This document shows positions 5,512-10,060 of a stretch of 64,000 bases of DNA, in pieces. The notes below the pieces were generated by a model, which was not told where the DNA came from, searched no databases, and worked only from the letters and a program-made list of their open reading frames with translations. The stretch's first letter is position 1. Each line of letters opens with the position of its first letter. A program made the translations under genes and the position numbers. Source of the DNA: Vagococcus xieshaowenii (lineage in GTDB: Bacteria; Bacillota; Bacilli; Lactobacillales; Vagococcaceae); the NCBI RefSeq assembly GCF_004792515.1, contig NZ_CP038865.1, positions 704,001 through 768,000 of the forward strand, written 5' to 3'.

Positions 5512-5524
5512 TAATTTATTAAGT

Positions 5525-5615
5525 TTTCTAGGGTTCCGCATCGATGATGGACTGGTCCGAGTGAAAACGCGCAAATAATAATTTGCGTCACACGGAAGGA
5601 CAAAATCCTGGGAGA
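5525..5615 (+). promoter_or_regulatory. Guanidine-I riboswitch (ykkC class)
   Basis: The conserved core of the ykkC/guanidine-I class is readable: CTAGGGTTCCG, ACTGGTCCGAGTGAAAAC, then CACACGG and the AAAATCCTGGGAGA block. Such RNAs bind guanidinium and switch expression on. The 3' part of the aptamer (from 5603) is shared with the 5' arm of the terminator that follows, which is the expected switching arrangement. The two genes downstream are SMR proteins of the guanidinium-exporter type, matching the ligand. Confidence 0.93.
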
Positions 5616-5649
5616 AGATTGTGTAAGCAGTCTTTTCCTAGGATTTTTT
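5603..5649 (+). terminator. Riboswitch-controlled terminator
   Basis: AATCCTGGGAGAAGATTG pairs with CAGTCTTTTCCTAGGATT (several G-U pairs), followed by a T run. Its 5' arm overlaps the conserved 3' end of the aptamer, so ligand binding should prevent its formation. Confidence 0.88.
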
Positions 5650-9597: not shown

Positions 9598-9774
9598 ATT
9601 TCCTCTTTTCTATAGGTTCTCTTTAAATGAGAGCATGTTGTATGAGGAAATTATGAAATAGAAAAGGTTATAACAGGCGACAGCTAATGAAATAGTGCGC
9701 CCGTAAACTAGGTGGTTCCTCTTTAAGTGTCATAATTTCCTGCTCAGATTGACTATCGTCCATTAGTGTCGCCT
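9598..9774 (-). promoter_or_regulatory. Alternative RNA pairings in the mgtA leader
   Basis: Four segments of the minus-strand RNA are mutually complementary. In transcript order: B' (9767-9774, beside the leader ORF ribosome site), A' (9730-9741, inside the leader ORF), B (9675-9682, end of the leader ORF) and A (9645-9656). B' with B gives 8 perfect pairs and A' with A gives 12; the two helices interleave. In addition 9644-9651 can pair over 8 bases with 9598-9605, the mgtA ribosome site. So segment A can bind either the leader ORF or the mgtA ribosome site. That these compete in vivo is an inference. Confidence 0.6.
9668..9763 (-). CDS. Leader ORF upstream of mgtA (31 codons)
   Basis: Encodes a 31-residue peptide starting MDDSQSEQE, followed by IMTLKEEPPS and ending in SCRLL. 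The start has the best ribosome site in the region: AAGGAGG at 9772-9778, eight bases from the ATG. It lies after the M-box terminator and 74 bases before mgtA, so it is transcribed only when the riboswitch allows. It is neither hydrophobic nor signal-like. Its acidic start and the EEPP motif resemble nascent sequences known to destabilise the translating ribosome at low Mg2+ (as shown for the MgtL leader in enterobacteria). A regulatory role is inferred, not shown. Confidence 0.7.
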   Translation of the reverse strand: MDDSQSEQEIMTLKEEPPSLRAHYFISCRLL

Positions 9775-9790
9775 CCTTTTTTTTGTATAG

Positions 9791-9822
9791 AAAAAGCCCT
9801 TCGCTAAGGCTCAGCGAAGGGC
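9791..9822 (-). terminator. M-box controlled terminator
   Basis: On the minus strand GCCCTTCGCT pairs with AGCGAAGGGC (10 perfect pairs, seven-base loop), followed by TTTTT. It lies between the M-box aptamer and the leader ORF and is the expected expression platform for Mg2+-induced termination. Confidence 0.9.
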
Positions 9823-9884
9823 AATAGATTTCATGATTGATTGAATATAACTACTTTAAACAGTTATACGCGCACCAAAAAAAC

Positions 9885-10060
9885 ACGGCTATTGATCTAG
9901 TCGTTGAGCTTTAGCACTATACAACGTAAAAAACATTAACGTTTTTAGCTACCTTATGAAAAGCCTTATTTCGACAATTCCTGTTCTACCCATTGGCGTC
10001 TTTCGACATTTTTGGGCAGTAGCCTATGTTTGTATAGGAGCCTCACCTAACAAATATTTT
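9885..10060 (-). promoter_or_regulatory. M-box (ykoK) Mg2+ riboswitch
   Basis: Read on the minus strand, the conserved M-box blocks appear in order: GTTAGGTGAGGCTCCTATAC, then ATAGGCTACTGCCC, GTCGAAAGACGCCAATGGGT, AACAGGAATTGTCGAAATAA, GGCTTTTCATAAGGTAGCT. The class senses Mg2+ and terminates transcription when Mg2+ is sufficient. Gene, terminator and aptamer agree on Mg2+ homeostasis. Limits are approximate. Confidence 0.93.

Follow-up and report, generated by a model that had tools for sequence, protein, structure and literature searches.

Background

Destabilisation of the ribosome by an acidic nascent chain has been documented as a Mg2+ sensor in Escherichia coli (PMC11282234) and Salmonella (PMC8092293). 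The Salmonella mgtQ leader carries two ribosome-destabilising residues, Asp2 and Glu5, and exposes the ribosome site of mgtB by means of alternative stem-loops (PMC8092293). In the E. coli mgtL leader, ribosomes that drop off at the sequence EPDP prevent Rho-dependent termination and so raise mgtA, as summarised in PMC11282234 and in Chadani 2017 as cited there. High Mg2+ suppresses drop-off on acidic N-termini (PMC9718836). In E. coli, two acidic residues at the start do not by themselves destabilise the ribosome in every case (PMC11282234). The principles of the M-box riboswitch and of the ribosome-destabilising leader are each known separately. In the open-access literature searched, neither such a leader before a Gram-positive mgtA nor an M-box stacked on one is described.

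We analysed the region upstream of mgtA in a 64,000-nucleotide stretch of Vagococcus xieshaowenii DNA (hereafter the window). A first-pass annotation of this DNA had proposed two stacked layers of control, the second one depending on early exit of the ribosome from a short leader ORF. It identified neither the acidic N-terminus of the leader as the presumed cause of this early exit nor the Gram-negative precedents mgtL and mgtQ.

Results and Discussion

An M-box and a leader ORF precede mgtA

The M-box, the terminator and the 31-codon ORF with its AAGGAGG site, as read in the first-pass annotation, are all present in the window and in that order (Table 1). The upstream element matches the M-box covariance model with 157.7 bits against a gathering score of 44, and the terminator lies downstream of it. 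The identity of MgtA is supported by scores over the cut-off for both TIGR01524 (1122 bits) and NF011702 (1134 bits). The leader peptide begins MDDS. In common with the leaders of the mgtQ/mgtL type, the ORF is short, has a good Shine-Dalgarno sequence, lies directly upstream of a Mg2+ transporter, and carries acidic residues (which in this type come with or without proline) at its very start. A Guanidine-I riboswitch (81.4 bits, positions 5517-5616 of the window, plus strand) and, behind it, two adjacent small ORFs of SMR-type membrane transporters adjoin mgtA; the riboswitch also occurs in the related locus L002.

Table 1. Features of the mgtA upstream region, in window coordinates
Feature	Position	Strand	Evidence or remark
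M-box (ykoK) Mg2+ riboswitch aptamer, layer 1	10061-9889	-	RF00380, 157.7 bits, E 3.4e-36
Intrinsic terminator of the M-box expression platform	9822-9787	-	stem 9822-9796, 12 pairs, T-tail
Leader Shine-Dalgarno AAGGAGG	9778-9772	-	sequence; spacing to leader ATG 8 nt
Leader ORF, ATG start, 31 aa, MDDSQSEQEIMTLKEEPPSLRAHYFISCRLL	9763-9668	-	counterparts by position upstream of mgtA elsewhere
Acidic codons 2-3 (Asp-Asp), predicted ribosome-destabilising motif	9760-9755	-	position of acidity kept, codons vary (GAT/GAC/GAA)
H1 5' strand: end of leader Shine-Dalgarno, start codon, codons 2-4	9774-9752	-	
H1 3' strand, distal leader	9696-9675	-	counterpart in relatives read in all three frames
H2 5' strand (anti-anti-SD), leader codons 8-12	9741-9730	-	12/12 complementary to segment A; co-evolution
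Segment A (anti-SD)	9656-9644	-	partner either 9741-9730 (H2) or mgtA start region (H3)
mgtA translation start region, Shine-Dalgarno and ATG, sequestered in predicted H3	9607-9590	-	
mgtA, Mg2+-translocating P-type ATPase, 877 aa	9593-6960	-	TIGR01524, NF011702

Three mutually interfering helices

We designate as H1 the pairing of the leader start with the leader end, as H2 that of leader codons 8-12 with segment A, and as H3 that of segment A with the mgtA ribosome site. The three complementarities on which the first-pass annotation built its switch are exact: 12 of 12 bases between segment A (9656-9645, TCATAATTTCCT) and the leader (9741-9730, AGGAAATTATGA), 8 of 8 between segment A (9651-9644, ATTTCCTC) and the mgtA ribosome site (9605-9598, GAGGAAAT), and 8 of 8 between the leader ribosome site (9774-9767, AGGCGACA) and the leader end (9682-9675, TGTCGCCT). 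The mutual interference of the helices before mgtA holds as well. Two of them are longer than first noted: H1 joins 9774-9752 with 9696-9675, and H3 joins 9656-9644 with 9605-9590, extending over both the Shine-Dalgarno sequence and the ATG of mgtA. By folding, the RNA from the leader to mgtA reaches -45.8 kcal/mol (z = -3.59 against dinucleotide shuffles). Its predicted ground state contains H1 and H3 together; when H1 is blocked, H2 is predicted to form in place of H3. In the window, H1 and H2 are each better than chance (p about 0.01).

Occurrence of the leader among relatives

The region upstream of mgtA was surveyed in 87 loci of Lactobacillales, and an MgtA scan of named genomes yielded five loci. 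A short leader ORF with a Shine-Dalgarno sequence was found upstream of mgtA in 71 of the 87 loci; here, as in all cross-locus counts below, related loci are not independent. The leader ORF was picked by the strength of its ribosome site, with seven loci corrected by hand on the grounds of a higher-ranked downstream membrane ORF, a nearby in-frame start or a weak site. Conservation of the ORF in close relatives is borne out by its presence in the closest relative (G003) and in the sister genus. It also occurs in Enterococcus (e.g. E. villorum, L126), in Aerococcaceae (Fundicoccus ignavus, L123) and in Lapidilactobacillus bayanensis (L127), and is absent from G002, a member of the window's own genus, and from several other loci of the mgtA survey. 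Two M-boxes in tandem take its place in G002; at locus L003, from a species of this genus without the acidic leader, such a pair lies before mgtA at 835-1007 and 1170-1348.

The two layers also occur apart from each other. Several enterococcal loci keep the leader and its helices with no M-box within the 0.7-1.5 kb scanned, and other loci (e.g. L169, L178) have an M-box without the leader. A second construction is found in seven loci (L105-L110, L115), in which an acidic leader, beginning MPEDSS, MPDDSS, MSEDSS or MEDEP, extends 32 nt beyond the mgtA start codon. In this overlapping arrangement, a ribosome reading to the end of the leader would cross the mgtA start, and one that drops off early would not. 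These seven loci would thus follow the same logic without the helices, and the two layers and two constructions look like exchangeable modules.

Some loci contain further small ORFs. In L031-L033, L036-L041, L073, L075, L078, L092, L123 and L045, the leader and mgtA are separated by a small membrane ORF with a single helix (e.g. MSEVMIFLLFMSVGLSLWVIFYGKKVK, MQFIFEFTLFLGIAWFLLNYFWRKKGE), which overlaps or runs into the mgtA start. Two examples gave no NCBIfam match. Where this ORF intervenes, the target of the switch is its ribosome site, and the encoded peptide may be a partner of MgtA. Another mini-leader, M[VI]KRC..., basic and not acidic, with a strong Shine-Dalgarno sequence, is located between M-box and mgtA in some Lactobacillales (L091, L093, L094, L099, L101, L103, L104) and has its own conserved downstream element.

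Conservation and co-evolution of the helices

Tested against shuffled partners, H1 is significant (p<=0.05) in 56 and H2 in 38 of the 71 loci. Intercistronic regions are too divergent for a usable whole-set DNA alignment of H2, and partner-swap energies were therefore used. The summed energy of the loci's own pairings is -1519 kcal/mol for H1, against -1413 +/- 21 for partners swapped within clades, and -1241 against -1068 +/- 23 kcal/mol for H2; for neither helix was any of 5000 swaps as good. In the main group, 94% of the H1 cells are paired, against 42-58% with the register slid, and both sides have changed in 22 cells. An example of such matched changes is GGCGACA/TGTCGCC in the window and GGCGAAG/CTTCGCC in the sister species. 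H1 is also present in Lactobacillaceae, where both strands are of different sequence. By these measures H1 and H2 co-evolve; together with the presence of the ORF in close relatives, this speaks against the first refuting case named in the first-pass annotation, a lack of such conservation. H3 is the weakest helix: tested alone, it is significant against shuffles (p<=0.05) in 19 of 60 loci. Its strand overlaps that of H2 in 80% of loci.

An acidic N-terminus and a distal half conserved as RNA

At least two Asp or Glu residues occupy residues 2-4 in 90% of the 71 leaders, compared with 2.4% of 249 ordinary genes taken from 20 stretches of the same genome set. The proportion is 87% when 46 distinct 8-residue starts are considered. 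Many leaders have two acidic residues only. Codons 2 and 3 are mostly GAT, GAC or GAA, the acidity being constant. In column 20 of the H1 alignment A1, which holds the first base of codon 3, 27 of 27 sequences keep a G-U wobble; an A-U pair would be stronger there but would change Asp to Asn.

The remainder of the peptide is not conserved at its C-terminus, and leader lengths vary from 14 to 38 residues. In the main group, the distal element is almost invariant and close to TATTATTGTCTATTTGTTT, yet it is read in frames 0, 1 and 2 in 13, 14 and 17 loci, respectively. We conclude that it is kept as RNA, namely as the 3' strand of H1, and not as peptide. In both MgtA families (DDSS, EPGSS; e.g. 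L031, L053), the acidic stretch is followed by recurrent AGT-AGT serine codons. H1 accounts for this recurrence in the first family, and not clearly in the second.

Ribosome position and the mgtA start site

The RNA downstream of the ribosome was folded with the ribosome placed at successive leader codons, and the openness of the Shine-Dalgarno sequence of mgtA, or of the next ORF, was read out. In this model, which leaves out pseudoknots, co-transcriptional folding and the M-box, the openness in the window is 0.001 on RNA free of ribosomes, rises to 0.30-0.37 for a ribosome placed on codons 2-4, and does not exceed 0.004 once it stands at codon 5 or beyond. Across loci, mean openness is 0.48 with the ribosome at codons 2-6 and 0.25 at codons 16-24, the early position being more open in 55 of 60 loci. 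Shuffling the mid-leader lowers the early openness from 0.51 to 0.27 (56 of 62 loci), the late level being 0.24. The computation thus yields alternative folds of the RNA that change with the position of the ribosome. The rule set out in the first-pass annotation, that early exit frees mgtA and read-through covers it, emerges from ribosome-placed folding in the window as in those 55 loci, and this regulatory logic is supported at the level of modelled folds. No position-dependent opening appeared in about 10 loci by the same procedure, nor was there a position effect in a further locus, L172 (MEPESSNGSNPDE).

The codons that permit opening fall where the acidic residues are. The last permissive codon, a measure defined after the first set had been seen, tracks the motif with a Spearman coefficient of 0.71 over 22 classes. 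For the Streptococcus-type leader MIQIDDHPEPH, opening is confined to ribosome positions at codons 4-9. A second set, computed after the first, consisted of families unused before: leaders of the second MgtA family (..SEPGSSR, ..ASDPGS, REDADDAD, ..KENPDE), one from another class of the phylum (MDYDDRKRD) and one from a plasmid of Cetobacterium (Fusobacteriota; MEGDVQSS). Here the motif was considered to end with the last acidic residue among the first 13, and the last permissive codon lay within two codons of that residue in 10 of 11 cases. Pooling gives a coefficient of 0.81 between last permissive codon and motif position for 33 N-terminal classes, which are not fully independent. The parts, their conservation, the co-evolution of the helices and the match of permissive position to acidic motif are results of computation.

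Proposed mechanism

We consider it likely, on the strength of these models, that two Mg2+ sensors in series control mgtA: the M-box and, after it, an acidic-leader ribosome switch operating through H1, H2 and H3. At high Mg2+, the M-box would fold and the terminator would end transcription ahead of the leader. On transcripts that are read through, a ribosome would initiate the leader ORF. With enough Mg2+ it would clear the Asp-Asp codons and cover codons 8-12, so that the anti-anti-SD could not pair; segment A would then cover the mgtA ribosome site (H3), the off state. At low Mg2+, the acidic nascent chain would make the ribosome unstable while it is on codons 2-4. With initiation aborted again and again, H1 would stay open and codons 8-12 would be unoccupied, segment A would be captured in H2, and the mgtA site would be free, the on state. 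In an untranslated leader, H1 and H3 would form together, which is again off. We infer that ribosomes translate the leader, that they fall off or pause on reaching the motif, and that the Mg2+ level determines how frequently this happens. The acidic first residues thus probably make ribosomes falter at low Mg2+ and thereby unmask mgtA.

Alternative explanations

The RNA switch could be the same if the ribosome paused or stalled at the acidic (or Asp/Glu-Pro) motif rather than falling off, in which case the cell may be sensing either Mg2+ or how much of a rescue factor (an ABC-F protein or EF-P) is available. A ribosome parked at the motif yields the same open site, and the present folds do not distinguish it from drop-off. 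Asp-Pro motifs do stall ribosomes of Bacillus subtilis, where YfmR relieves them (PMC11381351), and EttA of E. coli has MgtL and early acidic residues among its targets (PMC11282234). However, most leaders of the main group read Asp-Asp-Ser, without proline, and a classical arrest peptide would have to be longer than nascent chains of three to five residues. The target being a Mg2+ importer is also in keeping with Mg2+-dependent drop-off. We therefore regard pausing as unlikely, while the strongest of the alternatives. That the leader is a passive ORF, merely coupling or dampening mgtA translation under the M-box as sole regulator, is improbable. The M-box and terminator alone do seem enough in leaderless loci such as L169 and L178, but a passive ORF would not predict co-evolving alternative helices, an acidic N-terminus, or the match of the latter to the permissive position, and the leader persists in loci without an M-box.

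Two further readings concern the peptide itself. Codon 4 is AGT in 47 of the 71 leaders, and codon 5 often is too, as would suit an attenuator in which these serine codons, following the acidic pair, sense charged tRNA-Ser. Elsewhere, however, the position of this serine holds Gly, His, Asp, Gln, Asn or Glu with the acidity kept, and the target is a Mg2+ transporter; the AGT codons are conserved because they lie in H1. Serine attenuation, which we think very improbable, was rejected, since serine varies and acidity is constant. The strong ribosome site and the wide conservation of the ORF would equally suit a functional small protein, but conservation is limited to the first residues of peptides that differ more than twofold in length. 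With the distal leader read in three frames and no NCBIfam match, this candidate was likewise rejected and is scarcely credible. Drop-off at the acidic motif, behind the M-box, remains our preferred reading.

Comparison with known systems

What is, by these models, the same design recurs with quite different sequences in many Gram-positive bacteria. On balance, we lean towards the wider view that acidic-leader ribosome drop-off is a widespread Gram-positive Mg2+ sensor (in Lactobacillales and other Bacillota, and also on a Fusobacteriota plasmid), usually behind an M-box, so that two independent readouts of Mg2+, by RNA and by ribosome, gate one transporter, evolution having set the RNA switch point to match the codon at which the acidic motif lies. 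If true, Gram-positive bacteria would have used the same physical principle repeatedly, with unrelated leader sequences and in two constructions, and would have placed ribosome-based sensing on top of a riboswitch that responds to the same ion. Many natural leaders would then share one prediction, that acidic codons and RNA switch point shift together, and the sensing role of the ribosome would become testable in common laboratory strains. Such a sensor may help to explain how enterococci and streptococci regulate Mg2+ uptake.

Like mgtQ, the leader is a short ORF with early acidic residues before a Mg2+ P-type ATPase, and alternative stem-loops (1:2 and 3:4 versus 2:3 in mgtQ, predicted ones here) hide or free the ribosome site of the transporter (PMC8092293). 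In mgtQ, the untranslated or fully translated leader is off and the ribosome held early is on (PMC8092293); here this pattern is that of the computed folds. In contrast, mgtQ has 8 residues and is intergenic in the PhoP-driven mgtCBRU operon, with no riboswitch (PMC8092293), and its first helix overlaps the anti-anti-SD, whereas H1 encloses it. With mgtL the leader shares an acidic start (acidic/proline, EPDP, in mgtL). At the mgtL motif the ribosome falls off at low Mg2+ and MgtA rises (PMC11282234), as would happen here. However, mgtL acts through Rho-dependent termination of transcription, whereas the target here would be initiation of mgtA translation, behind an M-box. By eye, MgtL and MgtQ have nothing in common with the window leader beyond acidity, the peptides being too short for a formal comparison; we therefore say that it works like them and do not call it a homologue.

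The upstream layer is an ordinary M-box (RF00380) with an intrinsic terminator, to which a second, translation-based layer appears to be added. The nearest stacked case is the pe20 M-box of Mycobacterium tuberculosis, which is likewise followed by conserved uORFs (uORF2) with an SD/anti-SD/anti-anti-SD arrangement (PMC12810186). It works differently: the M-box there governs translation of a conserved small protein, Rv1805A (PMC12810186), whereas here the N-terminus of the ORF is the putative sensor and mgtA the target.
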